The notes below the pieces were generated by a model. It saw nothing but the letters and a program-made list of their open reading frames with translations, ran no database searches and was not told the origin of the DNA. Both the position numbers and the translations under genes were made by a program. From assembly GCF_024199925.1 (NCBI RefSeq), contig NZ_JANADR010000002.1, positions 186,001-250,000 of the forward strand: a stretch of 64,000 nt of DNA, in the 5' to 3' direction. Source of the DNA: Bradyrhizobium sp. CCGUVB1N3. GTDB taxonomy: Bacteria > Pseudomonadota > Alphaproteobacteria > Rhizobiales > Xanthobacteraceae. Below, in pieces: positions 15,966-58,946 of this stretch; position 1 is the stretch's first letter; each line of letters opens with the position of its first letter.

Positions 15966-16099
15966 TCCGAAAGACCTTTCCTTTCAACTTGCGCGAAGCG
16001 TCCGAAGGAAAGCCGGGCTGAGCGCGAAGCGCGACCCGGGTAATTAACGGGGTCGGCGAAGCCGACGCTTTGGAAGATCATCCCGCCGTTCCGAAGGAG

Positions 16100-16142
16100 C
16101 GGTCTAAGGGCGCAGTTATACGTCGCTGACGCGACGTCCTGC
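16100..16142. other. oriT: oriT of the Ti/RSF1010-like type
   Basis: Located between divergent traC and traA. TAAGGGCGCAGTTATACGTC contains the nick-region signature (GGGCGCA..TATACGTC) of the TraA/MobA-type origins, followed by the hairpin ACGTCGC-TGAC-GCGACGT (16120-16137) and CCTGC. TraA is expected to nick here. The rest of 15966-16209 shows no second feature. Confidence 0.85.
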
Positions 16143-16209
16143 TTCCCAGCCCGAATGGGCGGGCCGATCCCGACGAACAGGATGTTCGTTCTCTTCGGGA
16201 TCGCCCCTC

Positions 16210-19200: not shown

Positions 19201-19518
19201 CGGAACGACCTGCCGAGCGCGCTCGAATTTGCGCTCGCGGACCGGATGGTGAAGGCCGAGATCGACGGGTTCAACAAAGCCATCGCCGAGCGCTTTGGCG
19301 ATCGGACTTTCCTGCCGAACGCCGCTAAGGAGCCGAGCGGGCAGACCTTGGAGAAGGTGGCCGCCGGCATGGATCCGGCGCGGCGTGCGCAGCTGAAAGA
19401 GGCCTGGCCAACCATGCGCGCAGCACAGCAGCTCGCAAGCGGCGAGCGCACCGCGCAGGCTCTCAAGCAGGCCGAGGCGGAGCGTCTAGCCCAACGCCAG
19501 GGACAGACCCTGAAATGA
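16210..19518 (+). CDS. traA: TraA conjugative relaxase-helicase
   Basis: 1102 residues, the full size of Ti-type TraA, which nicks oriT and unwinds the strand. GTG start ([17 protein letters not shown]). The N-terminal MobA/L relaxase domain has the metal-binding [18 protein letters not shown]. The helicase domain has Walker [12 protein letters not shown], Walker [10 protein letters not shown] and [11 protein letters not shown]; later helicase motifs include [11 protein letters not shown] and [10 protein letters not shown] long helical C-terminal region follows. The stop overlaps the traF ATG (ATGA). Intact. Confidence 0.96.
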
Positions 19519-32499: not shown

Positions 32500-33078
32500 T
32501 CAGCGATGCTGACGGATGCCGTTCCTTTCGTTCTCGAAGAACATGCCGAGCGCGGCGCTCGCCAGTTTACGGCCGAAGGCGCGCGCACTTTCCAGCCCGA
32601 GTGGATCAAAATGCGCGAGAGCGATCTCAATCGTCCGTCGGGGTATCATCCGCGATGTTGAAATGAGCGTCAGCGGCTCCTCAACAGGATAAGGAGCAGC
32701 TTTGGTCAATGAGGCGCTTAACAGGATCACCTGGTAATCGTCTAACGCGCACCGTAAAATCATCTGTAGAGCCTTCGCCGGGCGATACTGCCCGCACAGG
32801 CTGTCAAAACCCGGAGAGAAGCCGGGAGCGGGAAGCGCAGCTGACAGAAATACCTGCACCTTGGGATCTGGCTCGGCGCGCTGATTCGAAAGGATGCGTT
32901 TCCTTTCCACGGACGATAAGGAGGTCGGGCCCCTTGCGTTCACTATCGGTGGGGCAACTGGTTCGAGTGGTGTCAACGCCGCAGATAGAGATGAGATAGT
33001 CATACTACTCCGGTTTTCCAAAATCGTCGAAGCGAGACGCGCTGCCTGCCGTGAACCGGTCATCTTGCGGAAAGCCAC
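32500..33078 (-). CDS. virC2: VirC2-like protein
   Basis: 192 residues. Follows virC1 with one base between them, as in Ti virC operons. The C-terminal two-thirds (RAEPDPKVQVFLSAALP, ALQMILRCALDDYQVILLSA, SRMIPRRTIEIALAHFDPLG) fit VirC2, a ribbon-helix-helix-like protein that works with VirC1 at the overdrive next to the right border. The N-terminal ~60 residues are variable. Confidence 0.8.
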   Translation of the reverse strand: MAFRKMTGSRQAARLASTILENRSSMTISSLSAALTPLEPVAPPIVNARGPTSLSSVERKRILSNQRAEPDPKVQVFLSAALPAPGFSPGFDSLCGQYRPAKALQMILRCALDDYQVILLSASLTKAAPYPVEEPLTLISTSRMIPRRTIEIALAHFDPLGLESARAFGRKLASAALGMFFENERNGIRQHR

Positions 33079-33079
33079 A

Positions 33080-33775
33080 TCAATCCTCCAATGCCTTCTC
33101 GATGACGTCGCCGATGAGCGCTAGTTCGTCCATTGCGCGCCGGGTGATATGCAACATAGGCCGCATTGCGGGAGCGCGTGACATATTCAGCATCGTAATC
33201 TGGAGCATACCGCGTTCTTTCATAAAAGCGAAGGCATCACGCTCATACATCGGGGTCTCCAACATCGGCAGGAGGGCCAGCATGTCTTGCACATTCTGCT
33301 GAGCGGCGGTCAGACTGCAAGTCGGCACTCGCTGACGAAGAATGGCGGTTTTGATTTCAAGTTTCTCCTCTATTAGAAGTTCGAGTACGTATCGGTACGT
33401 CGTAAGTGCTTCGTCGAGACCTCCAGGTGTCAGCATGGTAGGCATCAGAATGAAATCGGAGCTGGCAATGATAGTATCATTGAGTTCGCTCAAGCCGGCG
33501 TGAGTATGCGCAAGCGCGTACCTAAAGCCGATAGCTTCCGCCTGTGCATATGCTTTTTCGAGTAGGGGAACTTCATCCGCAACGAATACTTCGCACCCAG
33601 GGTCCCAAGCGCCGTTGCTCAAAGCATTTTCTTTCCACTTATTGAGCGGACGGTCTTTATTCGCTTCGAAAAGAGCGACATTATACTTTTTTTCTGCGAA
33701 TGACGAACACAGCCCCATCAATGCTGTGGTTTTACCGGCTCCTCCTTTGAATGAGCAGCAAGTGATTAGTTTCAT
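33080..33775 (-). CDS. virC1: VirC1, ParA-like T-DNA transfer enhancer
   Basis: 231 residues, the size of Agrobacterium VirC1. Deviant Walker A at the very start ([19 protein letters not shown]), then [15 protein letters not shown] and [20 protein letters not shown]. VirC1 binds overdrive, raises T-strand copy number and brings the relaxosome to the T4SS pole. Divergent from virD1 across 261 bp, as in Ti plasmids. Intact. Confidence 0.93.
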
Positions 33776-34036: not shown

Positions 34037-34489
34037 ATGACGCGCTTAAGTAATAGGGGGAGTTCTGCTCTCATCGCCCAGAGCGGCTATAGAATAATCA
34101 GCGTGCGGTTACGCGCGGCAGAATTCGATGCGTTTTCGCAGCAGGTACGTTTGCTTGGGCTGACCAACAGTATGGCACTGCGAATTGCCGTCCGCAGGAT
34201 CGGCGGATTTATTGAGATTGGCGACGAGGCTCGGAATGATCTTCGGGCGATCACCTGTCACATCGGCAACATTGCCCAAACACTCAGAGAATTAAGCGGA
34301 GTTGCTAACCGTGACGCCTCGTTCGACGTTGAACGGTTCGAGACGCACAGGCAGCACCTTGGTCAGGAATTTTCCGCGCTCGACGCTCTGCTCCGCACAA
34401 TCCTGAACGTATCGCGACGTCGAGAGGACGGTCGTGGGCGACTACAGCAGCTCATGCAGGGCGACAGCGCCCATGAACGCGATCGTTAA
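34037..34489 (+). CDS. virD1: VirD1, border-cleavage accessory protein
   Basis: 150 residues, normal VirD1 length. The N-terminal ribbon-helix-helix region (YRIISVRLRAAEFDAFSQQV ... LGLTNSMALRIAVRRIGGF) and the helical rest match VirD1, needed with VirD2 to nick double-stranded T-DNA borders. Followed by virD2 after 9 bp. Confidence 0.9.
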   Translation: MTRLSNRGSSALIAQSGYRIISVRLRAAEFDAFSQQVRLLGLTNSMALRIAVRRIGGFIEIGDEARNDLRAITCHIGNIAQTLRELSGVANRDASFDVERFETHRQHLGQEFSALDALLRTILNVSRRREDGRGRLQQLMQGDSAHERDR

Positions 34490-34498: not shown

Positions 34499-35836
34499 GT
34501 GGCTCATCCGCAAGCAATCGTAAGAATTGTGCCTCGAGGCGGCGCTCGGACCGCCGGGCAGCTCCGAAGTCAGCTGCAATACCTCTCGCGCAACGGAGCT
34601 GTTGATCTTTTACGTTCCGAACGTCATCAAGGCGTTTTGCTGCAATACGACCGACTCGGCCAGTTTGCGGAAAGTTGGGCCGAGCAGACCGGCAACTATC
34701 ATGCCGATCAGTCGCCCGCAGAAAGCAATCAGGACCTGACAACTCATATCATCATCAGCTTCCCGCCCGGCACCGATGCCAACCGTGCGCATGCTGCCGG
34801 TCGTGCATGGACCGACAGAATGTTGGGTTCAGGTCATAATGGCGGTTCATTTGACTATGTGACGGCGTTCCATGTCGATCGGCAGCATCCACACTTGCAT
34901 GCAGTCGTCAATCGACGGGCACAGGAAGGCCATTGGCTCAAGATCTCGCGCCGCAATCCTCATCACAACTACGATAATATGCGCGCCGTATTGGTTGATG
35001 TAGCCTATGATCACGACATTGAATTGGATGCGACACGTCGTGTCGACCGAGGCATTATGGAGCGTCCGATTACTTATGCGGAATTCCGACGCAGGCAGAG
35101 GGTTAGAACAGACGTCGCAATTCTACTGCAACCTCAGCCAGGTATTTCTGTTAGTCCCAGAGACCCCCCCGAACCGCCGAACGTTGAACCCGACTGCACG
35201 ACCTCTGAAGCCCTTCAATCAGCACGGGACGTTCGCCAGACAATCCAAGCGTCCACGAGCACTGCGGAGGTGGTCGGCCACGCAAATACGGGGGCCAGTG
35301 TTCAGGGAATCGAAGCACAAGCCACGGATCCTGGTCCATCAGATATGCGCGGTGTTGGACTCCAGCGCGAAACTCGGCGCCGCCGCGGCCGCGAGCTCGA
35401 AGGCGGCGACGTCCAGACGAGCTCGCTCGAGCGCCCACGGCAGCGTCGCCGTTTCGCACCGGCCCACATCGAAACACGCGCGCAGCGAGCGATCTGTGAA
35501 CAGCGCGAGACCGAAGAAGATGCGGCGGATAATGTTGGTCCATCAGATGTAGGTGGTGTTGAACCCCAGGGCGAGACGGGGCGGCGCCGCGGCCGCGAGA
35601 CCGAAGGCGGCGACGGCCAGCCGACTTCGCTCGAGCGGCCGCGGCAACGCCGTCGCTTCCCGCCCTCCATCATCGAAACTCGCGCCCAGTGCGCGGCCCG
35701 CGAGCAGCGCGAGTGCGAAGAACGCGCAAGGCGACATCGCCGCCGCGAGCCTCAACCAGAGGTTCTCGATCCCGATGAACCACTGCGACTTCGCAGCGGA
35801 CGTGCCATCGTGCGTGAAGAGCCGGGCAGATCCTAG
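34499..35836 (+). CDS. virD2: VirD2 relaxase, C-terminus cut by IS1380
   Basis: 445 residues. The N-terminal relaxase domain is complete: LQYLSRNG holds the nicking tyrosine, LTTHIIISFPPGT and FHVDRQHPHLHAVVNRR hold the metal-binding histidines, then LKISRRNPHHNYDNMR and GIMERPITYAEFRRR. GTG start. The C-terminal half has a tandem duplication of about 65 residues (GPSD..GV ... ETR/GRRRGRE ... SLERPRQRRRF ... ETRAQ), each copy with a basic NLS-like RPRQRRRF. The last codon and stop come from the IS1380 inserted at 35832, so the native tail, including any omega/export signal, is missing. virD3-virD5 are absent. Confidence 0.93.
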   Translation: MAHPQAIVRIVPRGGARTAGQLRSQLQYLSRNGAVDLLRSERHQGVLLQYDRLGQFAESWAEQTGNYHADQSPAESNQDLTTHIIISFPPGTDANRAHAAGRAWTDRMLGSGHNGGSFDYVTAFHVDRQHPHLHAVVNRRAQEGHWLKISRRNPHHNYDNMRAVLVDVAYDHDIELDATRRVDRGIMERPITYAEFRRRQRVRTDVAILLQPQPGISVSPRDPPEPPNVEPDCTTSEALQSARDVRQTIQASTSTAEVVGHANTGASVQGIEAQATDPGPSDMRGVGLQRETRRRRGRELEGGDVQTSSLERPRQRRRFAPAHIETRAQRAICEQRETEEDAADNVGPSDVGGVEPQGETGRRRGRETEGGDGQPTSLERPRQRRRFPPSIIETRAQCAAREQRECEERARRHRRREPQPEVLDPDEPLRLRSGRAIVREEPGRS

Positions 35837-40708: not shown

Positions 40709-40733
40709 CGGCAGGATATATTGTGATGTAAAC
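40709..40733 (+). other. T-DNA left-border-like 25-mer
   Basis: CGGCAGGATATATTGTGATG followed by TAAAC. From memory it differs at two positions from the nopaline Ti left border (TGGCAGGATATATTGTGGTG + TAAAC): position 1 and position 18. It preserves the conserved GGCAGGATATAT core and the GTAAAC end. VirD2 nicks between bases 3 and 4 of the bottom strand of such borders. Confidence 0.75.
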
Positions 40734-40843
40734 GTCGCCTCGGTTTTTGAGCCGCAACTTCCGGACTTGGGCGAAGCCCAAGGCTCGCGCGGAGCGCGAG
40801 CCGGAAGTTGCGGCTCAAAAACCGAGGCGACGTTTACATCACA
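40722..40843. repeat. T-shaped palindrome (43-bp perfect stem, two mini-hairpins)
   Basis: Arms 40722-40764 and 40801-40843 are perfectly complementary over 43 bp. The 36-nt centre contains CTTGGGC-GAA-GCCCAAG (40766-40782) and CTCGCGC-GGA-GCGCGAG (40784-40800), separated by single unpaired bases. In single strands this gives a T with two arms, the topology of a parvovirus terminal repeat. Both loops are of the GCGNAGC kind known as exceptionally stable DNA mini-hairpins. The left arm begins inside the border-like 25-mer. Confidence 0.9.
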
Positions 40844-41240
40844 CATGCTGGCCCCCATTCGCTATCTCTAACGGTTCGCTTATGAAAAGGGCCATTATTC
40901 TGTTCGCTTGCCTAAGAAGCCACTTAACATTTCGCGATGCTGGAAGGTTATGATTCTTCCGGCATTTAAAGCCCCTCATCATTCTAGCTACCATCACAAC
41001 CGCTCGCTCTTCCATCACACCAACGCAGAATTCAACATCTCGGTCTCACCATGTCGTGGGCTCCTCTCAAATTGACACACACCGATTCATCAAATGTCAC
41101 TGTCTAAAATCCGGTCCAATAGGAATGCCCCCAATCGCCAGCACAGGCCACTCTCGCTAATAAAACTCTGATCCCGTTTGGCTCTACTCACAAGCCCAAT
41201 TACCTTCGCCTTGATCTCATTTCCAGTTTCTTCTCTCTCG

Positions 41241-41648
41241 ATGTCGTGGGACGCTGGCGATCCGGTCATTGCTGACGATTTTACCTCGCTGGAGGCCGCC
41301 ATCGCCGACCGCTGGGAATCATACGAAAGCCATCTTGGGTACCGTGTTCAACTCACGTACTTCTATATGAGTGAGGCGGATGCACGTTCATGTGTCCTGA
41401 TTGGCAGCCTTACCGCCGCCGCTACCAAGCTGAAATCGGATACGCATCCGGCTGAGGCGCCGGAGATTTGCATTGATAATGGGTATAGCTGGTTCATTGC
41501 CATCGCCAGCGGCTCGTCCGAGAGTAACATCGACGTTGTGTCTTGGGGGCGCGCGATACGGGAGGACGACGAGGACGAGGACGACAACAACAACGAAGAC
41601 AACAACAACAACAACAACAACGACGACGACAACGACGACGAGGAGTGA
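41241..41648 (+). CDS. unrecognised ORF with eukaryote-like context inside the T-DNA-like segment
   Basis: 135 residues from ATG 41241 (MSWDAGDPVIADDFTSLEAA). The middle is globular-looking (HLGYRVQLTYFYMSEADARS ... DNGYSWFIAIASGSSESNID); the last ~28 residues are Asp/Glu/Asn low complexity encoded by GAC/AAC triplet repeats. There is no Shine-Dalgarno sequence; the leader is CT-rich, and a similar ATGTCGTGG with a CACC context lies upstream at ~41050. A TTG at 41178 would extend it in frame. No homology recognised. It could be a gene for expression in a eukaryotic host, captured foreign DNA, or spurious. Confidence 0.4.
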   Translation: MSWDAGDPVIADDFTSLEAAIADRWESYESHLGYRVQLTYFYMSEADARSCVLIGSLTAAATKLKSDTHPAEAPEICIDNGYSWFIAIASGSSESNIDVVSWGRAIREDDEDEDDNNNEDNNNNNNNDDDNDDEE

Positions 41649-42117
41649 TCAAGTCGCCGTCCGGCCTGGCATTAGGTGGTGTTGTGTTTCGTCTGTCGAT
41701 TGTCTTATACTTTGTAGCTCGCTACGCCTATCATCCTTCACGGCGGCGGGTTTTCTGTATTTGAACTATCAAATGAAATAAGTCAGGCAATTATTAGTAC
41801 GACTGCTGCTCCGTCGTAGCAGCCTTTTCTTTTAATCTCCGTCTTTGCGGTCAATTATCGCGTATGAACATGTAAATGAGCGCCCTCCCAATACGAACAT
41901 ACAAATGCATGCATGTACAAACACAGAAAGGCGGCACAACCAATGAAACTCAAATTCTGCGTTCTTCGGGCAATCGCATAACCACTCTCGACACATCCAT
42001 AATAAACTTGCGACTAACAATAACACTCAACATACAACCCCGACGACCTCCACCCGCAACATCAGCCTCCACGAGCAAGGTTTTCGGCGTCAATCGGTGC
42101 AATGCTTTCCCGACACG

Positions 42118-42417
42118 ATGGCCTCGTTCACAGACCCCGTGGACAAATCAGGTCTTGGACTGCCCAGCGTGTTCGAACCGCCCCTCGAGCTTCCAGAAGG
42201 AGGGCGAGGCCTAATGCTGGGCAGCAGTGGCAGCGGTGGCAGGATATATAGCTTTGTCGCCTTTCTGTGTTTGTGCAGGCGTGCGTTGGTATTGTCGCTC
42301 GTTAGAAATTTAATGGAGTATGGGGACGTTCAGCCAGATGGTCGCCCTGCTCGGCAGGGAGAGCGCGGCCCCACACAACGTGGCGGGGGCGCCTTTTTTT
42401 GCATCGTATCGTACTGA
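42118..42417 (+). CDS. ORF crossing the right border
   Basis: ATG 42118 in the context ACGATGG, then MASFTDPVDKSGLGLPSVFE, PPLELPEGGRGLMLGSSGSG and, through the border itself, GRIYS. The part before the border has coding-like composition; the part after it does not. It may be the 5' end of a gene truncated at the border. No ribosome-binding site and no family. Confidence 0.25.
   Translation: MASFTDPVDKSGLGLPSVFEPPLELPEGGRGLMLGSSGSGGRIYSFVAFLCLCRRALVLSLVRNLMEYGDVQPDGRPARQGERGPTQRGGGAFFCIVSY
42160..42224. repeat. imperfect palindrome beside the right-border-like repeat
   Basis: Outer arms CTGCCCAGC (42160-42168) and GCTGGGCAG (42216-42224) enclose a second hairpin built from CGCCCCTC / GAGGGCG with CTTC-CA-GAAG at its tip. 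A stretch inside (GTTCGAACCGCCCCTC) loosely resembles the left palindrome arm (GTTTTTGAGCCGCAACTT), so the two border-proximal structures may be related. Confidence 0.5.
42237..42261 (+). other. T-DNA right-border-like repeat
   Basis: TGGCAGGATATATAGCTTTG + TCGCC. The first 13 bases match the border core exactly, and GT at positions 20-21 is kept; the last four bases (CGCC) diverge. The start resembles the octopine TL right border (TGGCAGGATATATACC..TTGT). Same orientation as the repeat at 40709. Confidence 0.62.
42255..42280 (+). promoter_or_regulatory. overdrive-like stretch
   Basis: TTTGTCGCCTTTCTGTGTTT followed by GTG lies across and just outside the right-border-like repeat. It resembles the overdrive core (AAGTCGCTGTGTATGTTTGT), the VirC1/VirC2-binding enhancer next to right borders, with gaps. 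Position relative to the border fits; similarity is partial. Confidence 0.4.
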
Positions 42418-48460: not shown

Positions 48461-49459
48461 TCATGGTCGGGCGAACGGCAAATAGATTTGCAAAACGCCG
48501 CGCCTGCCACGGCGGCGTCCCACATGGACAATGAGGTCAATCGTCTTTTTCGCGTAGTTGACGATCGAACTATGGGACATCTGCACCCCTGATCGGATGA
48601 CCATGAAGGCTAGCCGGTCGAACGCAAGTTCAGGACTGTCGGCGTGGATAGTTGTTATCGCGCCTGGGTGTCCAGTATTGATCGCCTCAAGAAAATCATA
48701 AGCCTCGACACCGCGAATTTCGCCCAGAACGATGCGGTCAGGGCGCATTCGCAGACAGCTTTCCAAGAGCTTTGACGGACTCCGAGCGGAGTTTGCCGTG
48801 CGATCGGCAATTAAGCCAACCTGGTTCTTGTGCGGTGGAGAAAGCTCCGGTGCATCCTCGATGGTAATGATTCGTTCGTCGGAGTGCGACATCGCCAGCA
48901 AAGCGCGTGCCACCGTCGTCTTCCCTGACGATGTGCCACCCGAAACCAAAACGTTAAATTTCTCCTCAATTGCCAGTCGGAAGAGAGCCTGCAGGTTGCC
49001 GGTTTGAGCCATATCGGCCGCTGTCCTATGGCGCTCCTGCCGGAGGGCGTCCACCGAGATCTGCTCGCCTTCGACGAATTGGATATGGGAAACGTCCAAA
49101 GTCCGCGCCGGGTATTTGCGGATCGACAGGGACACGCCGTACTCAACCGCAGGTTCGACAACCACTTGGACGCGCTGGGGGTTGCCCCAAACGTTAACCC
49201 GGCCTGACACGATCGGATGAAGTACCCCAAGAGTGTTGCGGGCCTCTCCCGCTAGCTGCACTCCGAGCCGCTTGATGGCGTTGGCCCCTAACGCCACATT
49301 GATCTGGTGCATGTGTAACGATCCGGCCTCTTCGACGAAGATGGAATTGTCGGGGTTGATCACCACCTCATTGATACTATCGTTCGTGAGATATTCCTTC
49401 AGGGGGCTGAAATACTCCTCTATATAAGAGACGTCTGGGCTTGACCGGAAGTCATTCAT
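48461..49459 (-). CDS. virB11: VirB11 secretion ATPase
   Basis: 332 residues; hexameric traffic ATPase at the inner face of the T4SS. N-terminal domain (DSINEVVINPDNSIFVEEAG), Walker A VSGGTSSGKTTVARALL, Asp box ERIITIEDAPEL, Walker B CLRMRPDRIVLGEIRG, His box TGHPGAITTIHADSPELAF. All motifs intact. It overlaps the virB10 stop by 4 bp (ATGA); last gene of the operon. Confidence 0.95.
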   Translation of the reverse strand: MNDFRSSPDVSYIEEYFSPLKEYLTNDSINEVVINPDNSIFVEEAGSLHMHQINVALGANAIKRLGVQLAGEARNTLGVLHPIVSGRVNVWGNPQRVQVVVEPAVEYGVSLSIRKYPARTLDVSHIQFVEGEQISVDALRQERHRTAADMAQTGNLQALFRLAIEEKFNVLVSGGTSSGKTTVARALLAMSHSDERIITIEDAPELSPPHKNQVGLIADRTANSARSPSKLLESCLRMRPDRIVLGEIRGVEAYDFLEAINTGHPGAITTIHADSPELAFDRLAFMVIRSGVQMSHSSIVNYAKKTIDLIVHVGRRRGRRGVLQIYLPFARP

Positions 49460-50808
49460 CGAAGAACAAGGTCCCGATTCACGAAAATACGAACTTCCTC
49501 GCCTTGCGGGACACGCAAGAGTGGAGGAAGGGAGAGATACTCGTCAACGATAGGTCTGGCCTGCCCCCCGATGGTCGCTGCAGCGTCGGCCACGGCCTGG
49601 CCTGTAGCGTTCGAGCTGTCTGGCCAGGCACCTCCGCTATAGTACGGCGGACGATTTACATTCGATGACCTGTTGCTGCCGACGAGAGCGGGAATGGTCG
49701 ATGACACTGCCGTGACCACGCTGAAGAGGAGACCCGCACCTATCTTCGCGCCATAACGGTTATCTACATTCCCTTCGGTACCAGCTCGACCGAGGAGGTC
49801 CACACCTGCGGAGCCAAGCTCGATCGATTTGGCGTCCGGAGTGATGGCCCGATTCCAAGCGATTAGCACTCGTCTTTGCTCGATTTGCACTTTATCGCCG
49901 ACAGTGCCAATCAGGCTTGTTCCTGCGGGCAGCAGAACACGCGAGCCGTCGATCGCGAATACGGGCTCGAGGACATGAGCTCGGACATTTCCGGGCAATT
50001 CTGAATGGATAGCCGTTTCAAGTACCGCGGAGATGATGGTCCCCTGCACGATGGTATGCGATGGATCAGCGAGAACTCGTGACACCGAGGTCTTTACCTC
50101 CGAGCCGGACCCGTCCCACGGCCCTGACTCGTCAACGACTATGCCGTTGGATTGCCTTTGCTTGGCGCTTATTTCATCCAGCTCGCGGCGCCTCTCGGCC
50201 TCGCGCTGAGCGGAATTGCGCTCTTCTTCCAATCGTAGTGCCGCGGCCCGAAGACGTGCATTCTCGGCTTCTGCCCTTTCACGATCCTCTTTAAGCTTCA
50301 GCGATAGTTCTTTGTTATAAGCGTCCAGCAGTTTCTGGACATCCGCGAGCGAAACGTTCGCGCCATCGTGGTCCTGGGCGTTTAAGCCTACTTCATTTTT
50401 GCTGTCATGGACCTGCTTATCCATCGGACTGTCAGACTCAGTGGCCGTTTGCTTAGCTGGAGGAGCCTTGGGAACAGCAAAGTCAAGCGGCTGATGGGCT
50501 CTTGGCACGTCCTCGACCTTTAAATCGACTTGCGAAGCCTTTTGGCCGTCATCGCCACTCAGACCGATCACTTTCAAGACTTGCGTGGAGCTCATAGCAA
50601 TGAACGCGCAGACGGCGCCGGCTAGAAGCGTGGTGGCGAAAACTGCCATCCAATTACTTCTGCGCTTAGAGTTGCTGATTTGCTTAGCGCGGCGTTTGTC
50701 CAACAGTCTGTTCCGCTCAGCGTCCGCTGGCGCCTCTGCTACAGCCTGTGCGGCATGGGGATCACGCCTATGGTCGGAGCCTCTCGGACCCATCGAACCG
50801 TCCCTCAT
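49456..50808 (-). CDS. virB10: VirB10 core-complex protein
   Basis: 450 residues from the ATG at 50808, which overlaps the virB9 stop (ATGA); the longer frame to 50847 lies inside virB9 and is rejected. Cytoplasmic N-terminus, one membrane segment (WMAVFATTLLAGAVCAFIAM), a long coiled-coil/linker (EERNSAQREAERRRELDEIS), then the beta-barrel domain (VQGTIISAVLETAIHSELPG, LLPAGTSLIGTVGDKV, GSAGVDLLGRAGTEG). VirB10 spans the envelope and senses ATPase energy. Confidence 0.94.
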   Translation of the reverse strand: MRDGSMGPRGSDHRRDPHAAQAVAEAPADAERNRLLDKRRAKQISNSKRRSNWMAVFATTLLAGAVCAFIAMSSTQVLKVIGLSGDDGQKASQVDLKVEDVPRAHQPLDFAVPKAPPAKQTATESDSPMDKQVHDSKNEVGLNAQDHDGANVSLADVQKLLDAYNKELSLKLKEDRERAEAENARLRAAALRLEEERNSAQREAERRRELDEISAKQRQSNGIVVDESGPWDGSGSEVKTSVSRVLADPSHTIVQGTIISAVLETAIHSELPGNVRAHVLEPVFAIDGSRVLLPAGTSLIGTVGDKVQIEQRRVLIAWNRAITPDAKSIELGSAGVDLLGRAGTEGNVDNRYGAKIGAGLLFSVVTAVSSTIPALVGSNRSSNVNRPPYYSGGAWPDSSNATGQAVADAAATIGGQARPIVDEYLSLPPLLRVPQGEEVRIFVNRDLVLR

Positions 50809-51536
50809 TGAGGCGCCATGCCCACCGCGCTCGCCTTGGCGACGCACACCGTCTCATCGCCAATTCTCATTACCCAAAACTCGCTGATCCCGTCGACGAC
50901 GATACGGTCGCCGTCAGTGCGAGAATTAACCAGCTTCTCCTGGCGATCGTGTCCTATCATAAATACCGCTGGCCGCGGCGCACCGCTAGGCAAAATAAAC
51001 GTTGTCTGCAATGTATTGTCTGTTACGGCGAGCGGCCGGAACCGCGCATCGCCCGAGGCTGCGTACCCTTCATTTATAGGAAGACCCCTGCCCGCGCCTT
51101 CATGTAGCGCCTTGTTCTCATCGGGATAGGCGAAAGTTGTCCGGAACGCTTGATGCGCCCCCGCCTGCATACCCGCCTTAATTTCGCCGACCGTTCGCAG
51201 CTCAAAAGTGTAAATGCGTCGATCAGTGTAGACAGTCATGTTGGTTAGAGCTTTATCAATGATAGGCTTTACGCTCATCACATTTCCGACCTTCAGCTTG
51301 ACCACTTCCCAGGATGCACTGTCGCCAACGAGAATAGATTCGATTATCTCGCCCTGTGCGAACTGGATAGCCGTGATGGACTTCAAGTAGAGATCGAGCT
51401 TGTAGACGTTGTTCTCGTCGTAAACATAGCGCTTGATACGCCAATCTGACGCAGCCGCTTTGGGGGATTGCTCCGCCTTCACCGCACTCAAGAATGCCAT
51501 GAGGATAATCAAACAAAAGGAAAGAAGCCTAACCAT
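50805..51536 (-). CDS. virB9: VirB9 outer-membrane core protein
   Basis: 243 residues with a signal peptide (MVRLLSFCLIILMAFLSAVK). Conserved parts: GDSASWEVVKLKVGNVMSVK, LTNMTVYTDRRIYTFELRTV and, near the end, VVDGISEFWVMRIGDETVCV. It lacks the extra cysteine-mediated VirB7 contact seen in Ti VirB9 as far as I can judge. Forms the outer ring with VirB7/VirB10. Confidence 0.93.
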   Translation of the reverse strand: MVRLLSFCLIILMAFLSAVKAEQSPKAAASDWRIKRYVYDENNVYKLDLYLKSITAIQFAQGEIIESILVGDSASWEVVKLKVGNVMSVKPIIDKALTNMTVYTDRRIYTFELRTVGEIKAGMQAGAHQAFRTTFAYPDENKALHEGAGRGLPINEGYAASGDARFRPLAVTDNTLQTTFILPSGAPRPAVFMIGHDRQEKLVNSRTDGDRIVVDGISEFWVMRIGDETVCVAKASAVGMAPQ

Positions 51537-51562
51537 CGCGCTTACATCGTTTTGCCAAATGT

Positions 51563-52237
51563 CTAGTCGGCAGTTTCCGCATCAATTCGGTAAGACGAGA
51601 CGACGAAGCCCAGCGGATTCTTCCACACTGCCTCCAAAGCAACATTTATTTGCGGCTTGAACTGATATCCGGCAGTCACCACGAAACTGCGGCGGACGGC
51701 CTCGTGTCCCTTTTGCTCCCGGTACTTGACGATGCGGACCCGGGCCAAATCCGCTGCGTTGCGCTGGTCTGAAGGCATGAGGGAAATAGACTTAACTACG
51801 ACCCTCACTCGCACGTCATCTCCATAGACTATGGGTGGATATTGCGAAGAACCCGAATGCCAAGTTTCTGCGAGGGTTTCCTGCGCGGAGCCTGACGAGC
51901 GTGCCATCACGTCAAGTATCCGAGTTTTGTTGTCCGCTGCATCATATGTCTCTCGGTCAACGACGTAGGAAACGAGTTCCGCCTGAAGCACGGCCTCCCG
52001 CTCCTGAAGCGTTGCTGGCTGGACTTGGACGAGTTTTTCGGCCTCGCCGGTTGTTTTGTCCACCAGAACCACATACGGCACGGTCTCCTTGATGGGCAGC
52101 ACGGCAATAAGAACTCCCAAGGCCAGCAGACACGCGCCAATGGAACCGACCGCAACTTTCGCCCAATTGTTCCTTTGCACGCAAAGACTAAAAAAAATCT
52201 CGTCTTCGAATGAATGCTGGGTTGACTGTTTAGACAT
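51563..52237 (-). CDS. virB8: VirB8 periplasmic scaffold
   Basis: 224 residues with one N-terminal membrane segment (VAVGSIGACLLALGVLIAVL) and a periplasmic domain starting KETVPYVVLVDKTTGEAEKL, continuing LVSYVVDRETYDAADNKTRI and SLMPSDQRNAADLARVRIVK, ending NPLGFVVSSYRIDAE. Nucleates the inner-membrane complex. A 26-bp gap separates it from virB9. Confidence 0.93.
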   Translation of the reverse strand: MSKQSTQHSFEDEIFFSLCVQRNNWAKVAVGSIGACLLALGVLIAVLPIKETVPYVVLVDKTTGEAEKLVQVQPATLQEREAVLQAELVSYVVDRETYDAADNKTRILDVMARSSGSAQETLAETWHSGSSQYPPIVYGDDVRVRVVVKSISLMPSDQRNAADLARVRIVKYREQKGHEAVRRSFVVTAGYQFKPQINVALEAVWKNPLGFVVSSYRIDAETAD

Positions 52238-52393
52238 GCAGTTCCCTGGTCAGTAGCCACTCTCGGGTGTGACGCAGAGGATTGAGTTCGCAAAAACACG
52301 AGCCTGGTCTCAACCTAGATCGAACGATTTCCAACAATTTAGTACCAGCTGCTCATGTAATGTACCGCCCATCCATGGGACAATTATTGGCGT
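52238..52393 (-). other. virB6-virB8 gap where virB7 is expected
   Basis: 156 bp. No lipobox-type small ORF is evident. One frame from a TTG (…RPGSCFCELNPLRHTREWLL…) ends overlapping the virB8 ATG but lacks a signal peptide. Either virB7 is absent or its role is taken by the small lipoprotein at 54215. Confidence 0.4.
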
Positions 52394-53440
52394 TCAGCGA
52401 TCCACACGTTCGTCCCAATGCCGTTGCCGCATAGAAGCGCTTTGACGCATCGCGTTGATCGCCTGCGACGTATCGCTGCCTGACGATGCCTTAGAGGTCG
52501 CTCCGGTATCGGTGGCAGCGCCCTGCGATCGTCGAGCGTTGGCGTAAAGCCTCATCGTCGCACTTTTGGCCATAGAAGCTGCGGCAACGACTGCACCTGC
52601 CCCGACAGCGGCAACCGATGCACTGGCTAGGTTGCTTGCCATAGTTGGAATCTGGAACAGGAGAACAGTCGCTGCCATTATGACGAAAAGGAACGCAAAT
52701 GGATCGCCGCCGGACGCCGCGCGAGTCTCCGCCGCGATATAAAGTACAATAGCCATTAGCGCCGTCGTCAATAACGGAATGACTGAATAACCAATCGTAA
52801 AGCGTGTCCAGCTCTCGAAATATTGCTTCGTTTGTGGCATCATCAGCATGGCAATTGCCAGGGGCGCTAGGCTGATTGCCACCGCAAGCCCTAATTTTCC
52901 AACTATCACAGTAATAGCGCACGCGGCGTAAAAAAAACCGACAACGACCAATGTAAACGCACCAAAAAACACGCCCCGAATTGCCTTCCCGACTTTGAGC
53001 ACCGAGAGGTGCGAAAAGAAGTCATCGGCAATCTGCAGCGCGGCATGTGCCGTCTCGTCCATTGCCGAATACGTATCGATTATATTTGCTGGATTGAAAC
53101 CGGGAGCAGCGCTCGTCTTGAGCGTTGCCACAACCCCGCGCGCCATGAGCGCGCCATAGTCGCTCGGCACCTCCGTGATTATCACGTAAATGCCCTTGAA
53201 ATTGGCCCACATAGTCGCGAACGAATATATGAGCACATATCTCAACCCCCATTGAAGATATACAGAGTAGTTTACGCTTCCAAACTGGACTAAATGGTTC
53301 AGTGCTATAAAGAGAAGCCCGACTAGGGCTGTAGCACCAAGTAGTGCTCGGATCGGATCAGCGACTGATTGAAACACCGTTTGCACATAATCGACAAGTG
53401 CTGTGTCGATACTATGCGCGATACTCGAGATGAGACCCAT
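52394..53440 (-). CDS. virB6: VirB6 polytopic inner-membrane protein
   Basis: 348 residues, five or more hydrophobic segments (ALLGATALVGLLFIALNHLV, GAFTLVVVGFFYAACAITVI, LAVAISLAPLAIAMLMMPQ, FAFLFVIMAATVLLFQIPTM) around the usual VirB6 core (FESWTRFTIGYSVIPLLTTA). Forms part of the DNA path through the inner membrane. The C-terminal tail is Ser/Arg rich. Starts 4 bp after virB5. Confidence 0.92.
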   Translation of the reverse strand: MGLISSIAHSIDTALVDYVQTVFQSVADPIRALLGATALVGLLFIALNHLVQFGSVNYSVYLQWGLRYVLIYSFATMWANFKGIYVIITEVPSDYGALMARGVVATLKTSAAPGFNPANIIDTYSAMDETAHAALQIADDFFSHLSVLKVGKAIRGVFFGAFTLVVVGFFYAACAITVIVGKLGLAVAISLAPLAIAMLMMPQTKQYFESWTRFTIGYSVIPLLTTALMAIVLYIAAETRAASGGDPFAFLFVIMAATVLLFQIPTMASNLASASVAAVGAGAVVAAASMAKSATMRLYANARRSQGAATDTGATSKASSGSDTSQAINAMRQSASMRQRHWDERVDR

Positions 53441-53444
53441 GCGA

Positions 53445-54218
53445 TCACTTTTTCATGTCGTTTGGCAGAATGCGCACAGTGTCTGGCTCGGCACTATCCG
53501 AGCCGAGCACCATGAAATACGAGCCTGCCACCGACGCAATCGCCGCTTGGGTCCGCAGCGTTTCGTTAAGCTGCTGTGCGACTTCGATCATTACGCGCGT
53601 ATTAATATCGACGCTAGTTTTTAAGTCCATACTGTTTTCAAGCGCTGTGATATAGCCATTGATCCTTCCCATGCTAGCATTGGCCCGCTTGTAAGAGTCT
53701 TCCGCGGTGTACGCGGTGACTGCCGCTTGGGCCGACAAGTACGCGATCTTGCTCGACCGTTTGTCGTGATGCAGCGCAAATGCATCATCCAAACGATAGC
53801 GTTCGCGAAATCGGGAAATCGATTCCCGCGTTTCGTCGGGCCCAGCCAATGCTCCCGTCAAAACAGCGCTGGCCATTTCCGCCGGCGTTGAGCCTCCCTT
53901 GCGGGCCGCAATATCCGCCGCCTCGTTGTTCACCGGAAACGGCTTTGGACCTGATATAGCGGCGACAGCCGTGGAAGTCGACGCAAAGAGTTGCATCATT
54001 TTGTCACTTAGTGACCGGACACTGTCAACTATGTGCGCCAGCAGCTCAACGACTCGCTTATCGAAAGTTTGCTGTGAGCCATCCGGCACCGTGCCAGATG
54101 TTCCGGCCGACGGGAGCGGGTTAAGCCTGCCTTCGCTAGCGTAACCCCCACAAGGCGTGAGACCAATCGCCCCAAGCATCAGGCAAGTACACACGAGAAA
54201 TCGGGACACTATGTTCAT
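53445..54218 (-). CDS. virB5: VirB5 minor pilin/adhesin
   Basis: 257 residues from the ATG at 54218 (MNIVSRFLVCTCLMLGAIGL, a signal peptide), overlapping the stop of the small lipoprotein gene (ATGA). Helical after cleavage (FDKRVVELLAHIVDSVRSLS ... NASMGRINGYITALENSMDL ... MIEVAQQLNETLRTQAAIAS), the pattern of VirB5/TraC tip proteins. Slightly longer than Ti VirB5. Confidence 0.85.
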   Translation of the reverse strand: MNIVSRFLVCTCLMLGAIGLTPCGGYASEGRLNPLPSAGTSGTVPDGSQQTFDKRVVELLAHIVDSVRSLSDKMMQLFASTSTAVAAISGPKPFPVNNEAADIAARKGGSTPAEMASAVLTGALAGPDETRESISRFRERYRLDDAFALHHDKRSSKIAYLSAQAAVTAYTAEDSYKRANASMGRINGYITALENSMDLKTSVDINTRVMIEVAQQLNETLRTQAAIASVAGSYFMVLGSDSAEPDTVRILPNDMKK

Positions 54219-54355
54219 GCGGCGGCTCGCTTTGTTTGAAGATGAACCCGCTCCCAGGCGCAAACACAATCGTTCTTCCGTATCTCCGGAATCGATTGGC
54301 ACCCAGTAAGGGAGGCGGCAAGCCCAAGCACGAGAACTATTGTCGACGCCTTCAT
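54215..54355 (-). CDS. small lipoprotein between virB4 and virB5
   Basis: 46 residues: MKASTIVLVLGLAASLTGC with lipobox L-T-G-C, then QSIPEIRKNDCVCAWERVHL and a basic end. The start overlaps the virB4 stop and the stop overlaps the virB5 start, each by 4 bp, so expression is locked to the T4SS. Candidates: entry-exclusion (Eex/TrbK-like) lipoprotein, or a displaced VirB7. The paired cysteines (DCVC) in the mature part favour a disulphide-forming role. Confidence 0.75.
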   Translation of the reverse strand: MKASTIVLVLGLAASLTGCQSIPEIRKNDCVCAWERVHLQTKRAAA

Positions 54356-56700
54356 TGCAGCATTTTCATTTGGAAGTCCGGTGTTTCACGCCAGGTTGAC
54401 GACGCTTTATTGCCGCGCCCTCCACCCAAGACATCGATTCCTTTCTCGAGCGCGCCAAGTGCGAAATCGAGAACAACGCTGTCATCCCCGGATTTTAATA
54501 GTACGAGATGGTTGTCCACATTACTTATCTGGAGAAATGCGCTTTCGGTTGCCGTCAGGTTGAGCAGCGCAAGTTCCGCTTCGGTATTGGAGGTACTTGG
54601 ATATATCAGCCGTGTGACTGCGCTCTCCAGAATCGCACTCCCAGCCGCGCTGTTGGCGACATGCGACACACGCTGGGTCATAAGAACGACAGCAACGTTC
54701 TTCTTGCGCATTGTTAGCATCCAGTCCTTCAGCCGCCTTTCAAAATAGGGATCGTCAAGTAACTTCCAGGCCTCATCGACGACGAGCAGGGTTGGTGCTT
54801 CATCTTCTACGAGCCGTTCCACCCGCCTGAAAACGTAGCTCAACCAAGCCGTCCGAATGGTCTTGTTGTCGAACAGTTCTGTGATATCGAAAGCGGTGAG
54901 CTGGCTGTCGAAACAGAGGGGATCATGGCCCTTGCCGCCAAACAGCCATCCGAACTGACCAGTGCGGTCCCACTGGCCAAGCCTCTGATATAGATCTCCA
55001 TTATCATCCGTCGCCCGCAGCTGAGTGCGAAATTGCTCGAAGTTCTGCAGACGGCGATCAGCGGCCGCGTTCGCCTGGACGGCATCGTTCAGTGCCTGAC
55101 ACTGCTGCGGAGTAAGCCGTTCACCCTCGTTCTCAGCTAATGCCCTAAGCCAGTCGGAAAGCCAAGCCGAGCCGCGGTCATCGGCCTCCGCCCGCATCGG
55201 GTTGAAGCCAAGCTCCTGCCCCATCCGTACGGTGGAATAGCTTCCGCCCATCGCGCGAACCGCCATTTCGAAACCGCCATCCTTATCGAGTAGTACAATG
55301 CGTGCCCTAAGCCGATGAGCCTGGCTGAGCAAAAAGGCAGTACCGAGAGTTTTGCCTGATCCAGTTTGGCCAAGCACAAGTGTATGGCCAGCGGTGCGCT
55401 CGCCTAATTGTCCGGGCAAATGAAAATTGAAGCGAAACGCCTCGCCGCGTGCAGTCGGAAGAATTGTCACGTAATCGCCCCAAGGACATCGCTCCGCCGC
55501 GTTGCCTTTCGGCGACCCGTGCAAGGCGCAACATTCTCCGAAGTTCTGTGAGGAGATCATTGCCGCCCGTGCGCGGTAGCTAAAATTACCCGGATGCTGA
55601 GCGAAGTATATGGCGCGGGCGGAGAACTTTTCGCGGACGATCGACGCGCCAGCATCCTGCATTGCGCGAGTGACATAGGATACTGCCTCCTCAAGTCGAG
55701 GTCGAGTTTCGCAGAACATGGCGATACTACAGTGATGATTGCCAAAGACCACGCGGCCTGAGGCGACGTCGTCCTCAGCCTGTTCGAGTTGGGCCCGCAG
55801 AGAAATGGCCGCGTCCTCTGCGGCCTTCATTTGCTTCCGCACGCGAGCGATTCGGCCTTGGGCGGCGATATTGTCGATGGGTGTGAAGCTCTGCGAGACA
55901 ATCATGTCATATGGCAGATTAAGACTATCGAATATCCCAGGATACGTCGCAGCGGGATAATCTTTGAGGGATATAATCGTGCCGTAGCGTTTGAGATCCG
56001 GATTCGGATTATCGCATTCGAAGATACTCCCTTGGAAGGTAACTATCGAATTAGCCAAAACGTCAGCTACAGGCACGAACTGCTCACCAGCAGCGAGACG
56101 CCCACTTGACCCGTCTATCAGCGTGCGGAGCAAACTGAGCCATTCACCGCCCGAAACGGTTAGCCGGCGTGGTCTTGCCTCACTTAGGCTGACCATACAT
56201 GTATTGATCAACTGATCCAGCCGACTGGCGCGCGCGGCGACCTCTTCCCTACCGCAGAAGTCGCTACTGCCAAGAAGGCCAATGAGCCTCGCTATTCTCT
56301 TCGGTGGTCGAATTACGATGGTTACGATCGACACTCGATTACGCAACCCAACAGACTGAAGATAACCTTGCCAGCGCCTGTCAATCTCCTCATTAAACCA
56401 ATTTCCTTCAACGGCGCTCATGCTGGGGCGGGTTTCCACGGAGATGCGATGAACATAGTATCCGACATCCTCGCGCTGTTGCGCAATAAATCGCGACAAA
56501 GCGGTACTCAGCTCAATTGTTTTCCGGCTGTCGAGAGCGTCGGCATTCACCCCCTCCACAGCGAAGGTCCCGATTACATCGCCATCACGCAGCAGTAGAC
56601 TGACATCGTCGATGATACTTAGATACGGCAATCCACCGACGAGCTGCTCGCCTTCGTGACGAGAGCGTCGCAGAACGTGACTTGGGAAACCCTTATGCAC
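54352..56700 (-). CDS. virB4: VirB4 T4SS ATPase
   Basis: 782 residues, full length. The N-terminal VirB4 domain includes LPYLSIIDDVSLLLRDGDVI and YGTIISLKDYPAATYPGIFD; the C-terminal ATPase has Walker A LVLGQTGSGKTLGTAFLLSQ, Walker B PTLLVVDEAWKLLDDP and MRKKNVAVVLMTQRVSHVAN. The largest energy module of the channel. Overlaps virB3 by 8 bp. Confidence 0.96.
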   Translation of the reverse strand: MHKGFPSHVLRRSRHEGEQLVGGLPYLSIIDDVSLLLRDGDVIGTFAVEGVNADALDSRKTIELSTALSRFIAQQREDVGYYVHRISVETRPSMSAVEGNWFNEEIDRRWQGYLQSVGLRNRVSIVTIVIRPPKRIARLIGLLGSSDFCGREEVAARASRLDQLINTCMVSLSEARPRRLTVSGGEWLSLLRTLIDGSSGRLAAGEQFVPVADVLANSIVTFQGSIFECDNPNPDLKRYGTIISLKDYPAATYPGIFDSLNLPYDMIVSQSFTPIDNIAAQGRIARVRKQMKAAEDAAISLRAQLEQAEDDVASGRVVFGNHHCSIAMFCETRPRLEEAVSYVTRAMQDAGASIVREKFSARAIYFAQHPGNFSYRARAAMISSQNFGECCALHGSPKGNAAERCPWGDYVTILPTARGEAFRFNFHLPGQLGERTAGHTLVLGQTGSGKTLGTAFLLSQAHRLRARIVLLDKDGGFEMAVRAMGGSYSTVRMGQELGFNPMRAEADDRGSAWLSDWLRALAENEGERLTPQQCQALNDAVQANAAADRRLQNFEQFRTQLRATDDNGDLYQRLGQWDRTGQFGWLFGGKGHDPLCFDSQLTAFDITELFDNKTIRTAWLSYVFRRVERLVEDEAPTLLVVDEAWKLLDDPYFERRLKDWMLTMRKKNVAVVLMTQRVSHVANSAAGSAILESAVTRLIYPSTSNTEAELALLNLTATESAFLQISNVDNHLVLLKSGDDSVVLDFALGALEKGIDVLGGGRGNKASSTWRETPDFQMKMLQ

Positions 56701-56971
56701 GATACACGAACCGGCCGCCCTTCAACAGGGCAGAGCTTATAGGTGTACTTTGCACGGTCGCGATGATGACACTAATCAGTTTTGGATCGTAAGCGGCTAG
56801 AGCACGCAGGAGTCCGTAACCAACACTTCCCATTATTGCCAGATAGCAGAATGACTTCGTGAGGACGAAGCCAAGCATAACGACCCATATGAGGAACACT
56901 AGATGAATGACCGGCAATCCCGCAAAAGAGACCTCTCGAGTTAATCCGAGGAAGACTGTCGTGCGCTCCAT
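56693..56971 (-). CDS. virB3: VirB3 inner-membrane protein
   Basis: 92 residues from the ATG at 56971, with an A/G-rich GGAGACG upstream; the longer frame to 57115 overlaps virB2 and is rejected. Sequence MERTTVFLGLTREVSFAGLP is the conserved VirB3 start, then two hydrophobic segments (VIHLVFLIWVVMLGFVLTKS, FCYLAIMGSVGYGLLRALAA). Works with VirB4. Confidence 0.9.
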   Translation of the reverse strand: MERTTVFLGLTREVSFAGLPVIHLVFLIWVVMLGFVLTKSFCYLAIMGSVGYGLLRALAAYDPKLISVIIATVQSTPISSALLKGGRFVYRA

Positions 56972-57038
56972 AATCGTCTCCTTTGAAAATGCTGCGGCGA
57001 TCCGCGCTTTCCCTGGTCCGCACGGCGGCCCGACAAGA

Positions 57039-57428
57039 TTAGTGTGGCGCCAAGGAGCCGACAAAGCTGGCTCCGCCAAAGACGATTGCGATGCCCATGA
57101 TGACGGAGACGGCAAAGGTCCAGTCCATCCGGCCAGTCATAAACGAGAAGCCCACCGCCATGACTGCCAGAGCGGACACTGCCACCCCAAAGGGGCCGGT
57201 GACAGTCTTCACGATTGTAGTGAGGAACGTTGTCACCCCGTTGAAGTTCTGAGCAGAACATGGAGCGGCAAAAGCGGCGGTCAATAGAATGTACAGACCG
57301 ACGAATGACAGCAGCTTCTTGAAAGCAATGTGCGAAAAACACGTCCTCACTGAGTGCCTCACGATTGTCTGTTGCGGGTCGTTGTACGAGCCATAAGCGT
57401 TATGGTGTTCCGTGTGCCAAAAGCTCAA
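57039..57428 (-). CDS. virB2: VirB2 pilin precursor
   Basis: 129 residues as annotated, though the true start may be a later codon near KKLLSFVGLYILLTAAFAAP. Signal cleavage is expected after CSAQ. The mature ~75 residues have the two pilin helices (GPFGVAVSALAVMAVGFSFM, FAVSVIMGIAIVFGGASFVG). First gene of the operon in this window; the region upstream lacks virB1, the lytic transglycosylase. Confidence 0.88.
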   Translation of the reverse strand: MSFWHTEHHNAYGSYNDPQQTIVRHSVRTCFSHIAFKKLLSFVGLYILLTAAFAAPCSAQNFNGVTTFLTTIVKTVTGPFGVAVSALAVMAVGFSFMTGRMDWTFAVSVIMGIAIVFGGASFVGSLAPH

Positions 57429-58226
57429 GCTCGGCTAGCACGAGGTGATGCGACGGTCAGCAAGCACCTGAGCATTGACGACTTTGCGAGGCTGAGAACG
57501 ATCGCCAACCTGAAGCTGCAGCACGGCGCCAGGAAGACCCACTCGCTCCTCCCACGACTCTGCTATGCTCGAAATTGACGCACCTATTGGATGACCGAGG
57601 ATGGACAAAATAGCCAAATTGCCGCCCGCGCTGCGCCCACGTAGATCCATCGAACACCGTCCCACTAGACGGACAATGTGCCCGTACATTTGTTGATCAC
57701 CGAAGGGGGGCCCTCGAGCTACGGTTGGGTCGTCATCGCCGACCTATTGGGACTCGTGAAGAAAGCACCTCAACATCAGCAGTTTCACTGCTACTGCTTG
57801 GCCTCAATATCCGATCGCTAGGATGGATGGCTAGGACAAAACCGTTGCATTGGTAGCACTCCAGCAAACGGTTCGCATCTGCAGTCGCCCGTTCTTTAAT
57901 CGCGGGCACGATGTCAACCCCGACCGACAAAAATGATCTATGCCGGGTTCATAATTCCTTCCGCGGTCGTCTCTATGCAGGAGTGCCGCATTTGCAGCTT
58001 CCGTCCTCGCAGGGCCGCGACAACAACACTAGCAGACAGCCCTGTTCGCAGCGGATATCAAGAGATCGGAGCGACCGGGCAACGAACAAACCGGTCCCCA
58101 TGGTCCCAGGGAGGGCCCACTTCATCACCGCCCGGGTGCCCCTCGCCCGGCTCTTCGGCCACGAGTTTTGGAACGCAACTTGCAGTCAAGATGAATGCCA
58201 ACGTCTGTTGCACAGAACGGAGAAAC
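57429..58226. other. virB-virG intergenic region
   Basis: About 800 bp without a supportable gene; it should contain the divergent promoters of virB and virG. The 42-bp inverted repeat at 57897-57938 lies inside, so IS21-type insertion and deletion may have removed virB1. No clear vir box was found. Confidence 0.45.
57897..57938. repeat. 42-bp inverted repeat, right of virB
   Basis: Inverted partner of 48257-48298 with two differences (ATGTCAACCCCGACCGACAA in the middle). Marks a former IS end between virB2 and virG. Confidence 0.7.
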
Positions 58227-58946
58227 ATGCACCGCTCGTACGAAATCGGATGCATCACTATCGTCGACAATGATCTCAATCTTAGCAGAACCATGGATGA
58301 GTACTTGAGGAGTAACAACTTATGTACGGTCCGGGCCGTCACGCACGCAGAAGCGCTCACCCTCTACAACAACGCCGAGGCACTTATTGTAAACATGGAC
58401 CTTGTCCGCCACAACGGATTCGAGCTCCTGCGTGATCTCCGTGTTCGAAGAGACGTTCCCATTATTGTCATTAGGAGCCGACGGTATGAGCACGATGCTG
58501 TGACCTGGCTTGACTCTGGTGCTGATGAGTATCTAACCACGCCCCTCTCGATGGCTCGGCTTTTGGCTCACATCAACGCTCTGAGCAGGCGTCATTTCAG
58601 CACCCTTAGAATGCGAAGCAAGGCGCAGGAGGGACGATGGTGTTTCGGAGGGTGGGAGCTGCGCCTTAAAACTCGAAAGCTCTATAATCCTTCGGGCACA
58701 TCGGTGCCTTTAAGTGCGGCGGAATACTCGCTCCTAGTCACCTTTGTTGAGGCAGGGCAACGGCCGTTGTCGCGAGAGTACCTACAACGGGCCACCCGTG
58801 TGCACGGTGAAATACTCGATCGCAGTATAGATGTTCAGGTCCTCCGTTTGCGTCGCAAGCTAGAAGGAGATGCGCGCGCTCCCCGGCTAATAAAAACTGT
58901 GCGTGGCGTGGGTTACATGTTTAGCGTGCAGACTGTCCGCGCTTGA
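58227..58946 (+). CDS. virG: VirG-like response regulator with altered receiver
   Basis: 239 residues from the ATG at 58227 (ACGGAG upstream). The OmpR-type output domain is well kept and VirG-like (LSREYLQRATRVHGEILDRS, IDVQVLRLRRKLEGDARAPR, LIKTVRGVGYMF). In the receiver, the stretch aligned with VirG VVVDLNL reads LIVNMDL: the phosphoacceptor Asp is Asn, and the Asn two residues later is Asp. The conserved Lys of AKPF is Thr (TTPLS). The acidic pocket is reduced to IVDND. VirG activates vir promoters; this variant is unlikely to be controlled by normal VirA phosphorylation. No virA is nearby. Confidence 0.85.
   Translation: MHRSYEIGCITIVDNDLNLSRTMDEYLRSNNLCTVRAVTHAEALTLYNNAEALIVNMDLVRHNGFELLRDLRVRRDVPIIVIRSRRYEHDAVTWLDSGADEYLTTPLSMARLLAHINALSRRHFSTLRMRSKAQEGRWCFGGWELRLKTRKLYNPSGTSVPLSAAEYSLLVTFVEAGQRPLSREYLQRATRVHGEILDRSIDVQVLRLRRKLEGDARAPRLIKTVRGVGYMFSVQTVRA

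Follow-up and report, generated by a model that had tools for sequence, protein, structure and literature searches.

A probable one-gene T-DNA unit beside vir genes on a Bradyrhizobium plasmid

Natural DNA transfer to plants is regarded as an Agrobacterium speciality. According to the accessible part of a 2016 report (PMC4788154), the vir genes of Rhizobium etli transform plants when supplied with a transferred DNA (T-DNA), no T-DNA was found on its plasmid p42a, and rhizobial vir genes are puzzling because they seemingly have nothing to transfer. The accessible part of a 2021 report (PMC8554961) describes five border-like sequences and an ocs-like gene on p42a, read there as a decayed tumour-inducing (Ti) plasmid. 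Among the matches listed in the open-access literature, none reports a T-DNA in Bradyrhizobium, Mesorhizobium, Sinorhizobium (S. meliloti) or pRL7. Here, the segment at 40709-42261 of a 64,000-nt stretch of Bradyrhizobium sp. CCGUVB1N3 is analysed (the whole stretch, hereafter the window, is bases 186001-250000 of plasmid contig C2; a C2 coordinate is the window coordinate plus 186000). With a probability of roughly 0.83, this segment represents a T-DNA-type unit: one recognisable gene flanked by a left border (LB) and a right border (RB), with export to legume cells likely; that transfer to legumes occurs at the present day is a far more tentative proposal.

Border repeats and the gene between them

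The segment shares its plasmid, a contig of 347,613 bp (3.3% of the 10.44-Mb genome), with DNA-transfer (vir) genes. Its G+C content is 51.7% versus 60.6% for the plasmid, a difference in composition that a first-pass annotation of the window had noted. The features of the segment are:

40709..40733, plus strand: left border, 25-mer CGGCAGGATATATTGTGATGTAAAC; borders of the same class occur in relatives
40720..40845, no strand: LB-adjacent hairpin, arms 40720-40766 and 40799-40845 (47 bp, 43/47 paired), 32-nt loop
41116..41165, plus strand: candidate plant-type promoter, CCAAT box at 41116-41120 and TATA-like TAATAAAA at 41158-41165
41241..41648, plus strand: gene of the putative T-DNA, 135 aa, predicted 6b/RolB-type fold, acidic D/E/N tail; no Shine-Dalgarno
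42237..42261, plus strand: right border, 25-mer TGGCAGGATATATAGCTTTGTCGCC
42262..42276, plus strand: overdrive-like flank tttctgtgtttgtgc, directly outside the RB

The first-pass annotation had proposed two same-orientation repeats with a T-DNA border core, and both were recovered, with the core GGCAGGATATAT at 40710-40721 and 42238-42249. Against what we take to be the nopaline left border, the LB matches at 23 of 25 positions and the RB retains the first 13 bases and GT at positions 20-21, as it had stated. The genome holds six exact cores, all on C2 and none on other contigs, versus Markov-1 expectations of 0.009 on the plasmid and 0.28 in the whole genome; the earlier view that a chance pair is unlikely stands on this count rather than on a weight-matrix scan, in which the C2 borders scored 23-46 bits and random sequence at most 10.8 (5 runs) with a matrix partly trained on those same borders and thus circular.

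The four cores outside the window (C2 255510, 258516, 260735 and 280801) are all on the minus strand, and the C2 borders fall into two classes. LB-class borders have the tails TGTGATGTAAAC or CCTGATGTAAAC (C2 226709 plus, 260723 minus and 280789 minus), with a degenerate member at C2 258504 minus; RB-class borders have the tail NGCTTTGTCGC (C2 228237 plus and 255498 minus), followed directly by tttctgtgtttgtgc or ttcgtgtgtttgtgc. In a T-DNA the segment lies to the right of the LB and overdrive lies outside the RB, and the window pair, as 25-bp imperfect direct repeats, has exactly this polarity. A tttct..tgtttgtg-like flank, a possible counterpart of overdrive, follows most RB sites; over 46 nt, an RB of this class together with its flank shares 80% identity with a site near ipt in pTiS4. 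Separately, at C2 280789-281260 a lone LB adjoins a VirD2 fragment, 77% identical to residues 86-187 of p42a VirD2, apparently left from a second vir region closer to the Ti type.

The first arm of the hairpin begins within the LB. The genome's only other copy of the hairpin DNA sits beside the left border at C2 260723; a dispersed hairpin element was ruled out because its copies are confined to these two LBs. An inverted repeat (arms 23-52 bp) starts within the LB in 8 of 9 Bradyrhizobium LBs examined, the degenerate LB being left out of the count; 7 further LBs have 14-19 bp arms nearby, and none were found at 9 of 24 LBs. A comparison of the two C2 units shows differences in 8 of 45 aligned pairs: in 5, both sides have changed and the pairing is kept, and in 3 it is broken.

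For the single recognisable gene of the segment, the predicted product is a small plast protein with a 6b/RolB fold. In particular, a second-look aligner matched its predicted fold to Agrobacterium 6b (PDB 3AQ2, 3AQ3); identity is 20%, and the core has about 110 residues. A PDB sequence search with the window family ranked 6b first (E 0.12, not significant), a longer plast profile returned only two unrelated PDB chains (E 1.6), and no PF02027 (RolB_RolC) match was listed for the window protein. A PF02027 search of whole genomes (256 of the genus) matched 3 and missed a PF02027 gene of the strain's own genome that hmmscan of the protein found (28.9 bits, cut-off 23).

The plast genes as a family carry eukaryotic expression signals. 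Across 21 gene starts (R. mesoamericanum dropped as a near duplicate of R. altiplani, two T2 genes added), the median Shine-Dalgarno pairing is +1.2 kcal/mol, versus -7.4 for 31 control genes from p42a and Mesorhizobium mediterraneum with vir, replication or recombinase functions (p 3e-9). A CCAAT box followed by TATATAA (e.g. GGTCCAATAAGGAAGAG...CTATATAAGCC) is found at 10 of the 21 genes, the window gene not among them, and downstream of none; 0.04 were expected, with at most 1 in 500 simulations, although the pattern was written after seeing the boxes and the 21 genes are related, so that the counts are not independent. A second, looser and poorly framed promoter pattern matched 2 of 21 (0.16 expected), and AATAAA lies within 250 nt downstream of 8 of 21 (1.0 expected). 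The window gene itself combines the missing Shine-Dalgarno with a CCAAT box only, its upstream GGTCCAATAGGAA and TAATAAAA being a weaker form of the family's promoter pair.

Transfer genes of the plasmid

The neighbouring genes of the transfer apparatus in the window are:

32500..33078, minus strand: virC2, 165 bits (cut-off 255); relatives agree
33080..33775, minus strand: virC1, 347.6 bits (cut-off 313); relatives agree
34037..34489, plus strand: virD1, border-nicking accessory, 167 bits (cut-off 173); relatives agree
34499..35836, plus strand: virD2 relaxase, 257 bits (cut-off 623), PF03432; tyrosine and HVDRQHPHLH motifs present
48461..57428, minus strand: virB11-virB2 type IV secretion cluster; VirB1 and VirB7 not seen
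57933..58946, plus strand: virG-like response regulator, 164 bits (cut-off 344); relatives agree

Judged by NCBIfam equivalog cut-offs, only VirC1 lies above its cut-off; for VirC2, VirD1, VirD2 and the VirG-like protein, the named family is the best one, below cut-off. The N-terminal 216 residues of VirD2 are 52% identical to p42a VirD2 and contain the tyrosine and the HVDRQHPHLHAVVNRR motif. A putative VirD1/VirD2 nicking pair and VirC share the replicon with the borders. The neighbours named by the first-pass annotation are hence present as regards virC1, virC2, virD1, virD2 and a virG-like gene, while its VirB2-B11 set proved divergent from the Ti-like one and without a recognisable VirB7. 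Compared with the VirB set of M. mediterraneum plasmid NZ_CP088152, the present one has the same gene order and 47-77% identity; on that plasmid, too, a RolB-bearing unit lies between virC/virD and virB, and the order of the whole virC/virD/virB/virG-like set is common to both. Because of these likenesses, the VirB set looks like a dedicated rhizobial version.

Genes for VirD4 (70% identical to p42a), a VirE2-like and a VirE3-like protein lie 35-41 kb further along C2. The p42a VirE2 had found nothing in the genome, and VirE2 was at first taken to be absent; this was overturned by a divergent VirE2 at C2 267134-268654 (PF07229, 53.4 bits, cut-off 27), the earlier null being a sensitivity miss. 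A possible F-box (VirF-like) open reading frame (ORF) at C2 261085-262026 falls under the Pfam cut-off (15.3 of 20.5), and VirE1 of p42a has no match on C2. Since contig C1 carries nodC (754 bits, cut-off 550), the strain is taken as nodulating.

Other mobile and secretion genes were observed as well. The window encodes a conjugative relaxase (MobA/MobL plus helicase; 16210-19518) with a BID domain like that of Bartonella effector proteins, accompanied by a TraG-like coupling protein (13567-15498). A group II intron reverse transcriptase (44225-45478) lies between the segment and virB, near an IS110 transposase (42859-44061), and contig C3 has another VirB4-VirD4 type secretion cluster (5813-16826; 24-37% identity to p42a Vir proteins).

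Related units and competing explanations

A border search of rhizobial genomes, which the first-pass annotation had advised, found the pattern GRCAGGATATATNNNNNNGT in 8 of 265 genomes of the genus (its own included), versus 2 single matches for a reversed control pattern; more than one site occurs in three genomes only, those of the host strain (5), B. algeriense (6) and B. quebecense (3). A tblastn search of plasmids with the window gene gave 9 records (S. meliloti 2; Rhizobium 4, including R. etli CFN42 p42a; Bradyrhizobium 3), and borders are present in 8 of 8 matched stretches examined (Rhizobium sp. K102 not included). Further, the RB pattern matched 9 stretches of a genome collection (84,980 species, 257 Gb, contigs of at least 3 kb), against an estimated 0.2 by chance. 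The stretches belong to R. johnstonii 3841, R. altiplani, R. mesoamericanum, B. algeriense and M. mediterraneum, all of them legume symbionts.

In total, 24 RB-type sites were counted (16 sequences, 12 strains). For 20 of them, in 10 strains, an LB lies on the T side at 1.1-2.4 kb; an opposite-strand LB lies within 4 kb of none, and the LB of a next unit lies on the outer side of 5. The four sites with no LB within 4 kb are the strain's own C2 255498 (LB at 5.2 kb), B. barranii, B. septentrionale and R. altiplani (L084, contig edge); the last three sequences, having no unit, were left out of the outside-ORF control, which covered 13 of the 16. LB-gene-RB units recur across four genera, and the majority contain a single open plast frame. 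Their longest ORF is 258 aa, and none in the 20 units is long enough for an opine synthase of the kind found in Ti and root-inducing (Ri) T-DNAs; the p42a ocs-like protein has no match on the plasmid. B. quebecense, whose virC/virD region is about 90% identical where aligned (27% of the query covered), has two LB-RB pairs, so the border pair passes the sister-strain comparison. The earlier description of a border-bounded segment beside vir genes as unusual needs two qualifications: the segment is no one-off, and borders on p42a had been noted in 2021.

In B. centrolobii (contig L078, 1800-12400), a plast cluster lacking any recognisable border adjoins trehalose-6-phosphate synthase, caspase-like and GH108-like genes; caspase-like and GH108-like genes are also near the S. 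meliloti M270 unit, and on p42a a trehalose-6-phosphate synthase gene lies beside the ocs-like gene.

Several results weigh against the T-DNA interpretation. Foldseek alone gave no significant structure match for the window protein, its gene lacks TATATA, and three plast genes have weak-to-fair anti-Shine-Dalgarno pairing (-5.4, -3.7 and -2.2, the lowest of the 21). The window gene and its B. centrolobii counterpart differ with dN 0.19 and dS 0.10 (nonsynonymous and synonymous divergence), with no purifying signature, and other plast pairs have dN/dS ratios of 0.7-1.1, likewise without a purifying signal; values near or above 1 fit either diversifying selection or loss of constraint, and the openness of the frames under random substitutions is weakly unlikely for single pairs (0.17, 0.04, 0.03). 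Some units are damaged, in one unit of B. quebecense the plast gene is split, B. centrolobii (G021) and genome G082 have plast clusters without any border, and in B. barranii the gene that NCBI names RolB is some 7 kb away from the sole border in its stretch. VirB4, VirB10 and VirB11 are only 27-34% identical to the Ti-like set of p42a, whose remaining VirB proteins have no match on the plasmid; p42a VirA has no match on C2, with the rest of the genome compared only at C3 1-60000; and a vir box scan of the window found 0 (0.36 expected). A Ti-type VirA and VirB1-11 with vir boxes is hence not what this plasmid carries, as judged for the boxes in the window; given this and the unmatched VirE1, induction must differ from that of Agrobacterium or be lost. 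Because dN/dS is near or above 1, plast genes occur without borders and units are damaged, present-day transfer is rated lower than T-DNA identity.

The best-surviving alternative, which we consider unlikely, is an old Ti plasmid in decay, of which borders and plast genes survive as remnants whose transfer has ceased. The 2021 reading of the p42a borders, in the accessible part of that report (PMC8554961), was of this kind, and it accommodates the missing purifying signal, the split B. quebecense gene, the borderless genes of B. centrolobii and G082, B. barranii without a border pair, the lone LB beside a VirD2 fragment at C2 280789, the many insertion sequences and the unmatched VirA. It is opposed by the build and open frames of the units in four genera, the promoter boxes of 10 of 21 plast genes, the hairpin pairing partly preserved by two-sided changes and the vir gene order shared with M. 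mediterraneum. Much less probable is that the borders are relaxase sites for transfer between bacteria only (an origin-of-transfer-like mobilisation of small cassettes), with plast genes acting in the bacterium: VirD2 does belong among mobilisation relaxases and the plasmid has conjugation genes, but plast genes as a group lack Shine-Dalgarno sequences, about half have CCAAT-TATA boxes, and the plasmid encodes VirE2-like and VirE3-like proteins. Chance repeats, misassembly or vector contamination were rejected as having next to no probability, given six cores where 0.009 were expected and the recurrence of same-build units in 9 other, separately sequenced strains.

Proposed function and comparison with known T-DNAs

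The T-DNA interpretation, which the first-pass annotation had put forward, is read from the sequence through LB/RB asymmetry and polarity, the overdrive-like flank, the LB hairpin, an open, predicted 6b/RolB-type gene without a bacterial ribosome site, plant-type gene starts in its family, vir-like genes and the recurrence of units in other rhizobia. VirD1 and VirD2 would likely nick the borders, and the VirB/VirD4 system of the plasmid would carry a single strand into legume cells, where the plast gene would be expressed and would alter host cell growth or infection to the symbiont's advantage. In the exported strand the hairpin would come to sit close to the 3' end and, as a guess, might protect that strand or prime second-strand synthesis. 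Because no ORF is long enough for an opine synthase, the unit would be expected to modulate host cells, not to start a tumour that makes opines.

More speculatively, nodulating rhizobia of several genera could be natural genetic engineers of their legume hosts, delivering sets of one-gene T-DNAs during root infection. Each T-DNA might then carry a plast gene under a plant promoter, with the Bradyrhizobium LB hairpin perhaps shaping the 3' end of the transferred strand. If so, symbiotic host range or efficiency would depend partly on transferred genes, besides Nod factors and protein effectors. The units offer a candidate substrate for the rhizobial vir genes of S. meliloti, R. johnstonii 3841, R. 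etli CFN42, M. mediterraneum and Bradyrhizobium, among which are laboratory strains with sequenced genomes. They also provide a plast core reduced to about 110 residues and an as yet unexplained LB hairpin, and they make the question of whether nodule bacteria transform legumes directly testable.

The 1.1-kb units are, to our knowledge, the smallest natural T-DNA-type units. The window protein differs from Agrobacterium 6b and PF02027 proteins in its short core and low identity, its acidic tail and its lack of a PF02027 match. R. etli CFN42 p42a resembles the present plasmid as a vir plasmid with borders, on which two border pairs with short plast genes were found here (one border of the first pair belonging to neither class); it differs by its Ti-like VirA, VirB and VirE2. 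Among Ti/Ri T-DNAs, the nearest in content, as far as the accessible part of the source extends, are the 3.5-kb lsn/lso T-DNA of pTiAB2/73 and its pTiS4 counterpart (PMC8554961). Overall, the rhizobial units share with Agrobacterium T-DNAs the 25-bp borders, their LB/RB polarity, an overdrive-like flank and a rolB-like plast gene, but differ in their size of 1.1-2.5 kb, single plast gene, repeated units and lack of an opine-synthase-sized ORF, in the LB hairpin of Bradyrhizobium, in a divergent VirB, and in having a nodC-bearing rhizobium as host.
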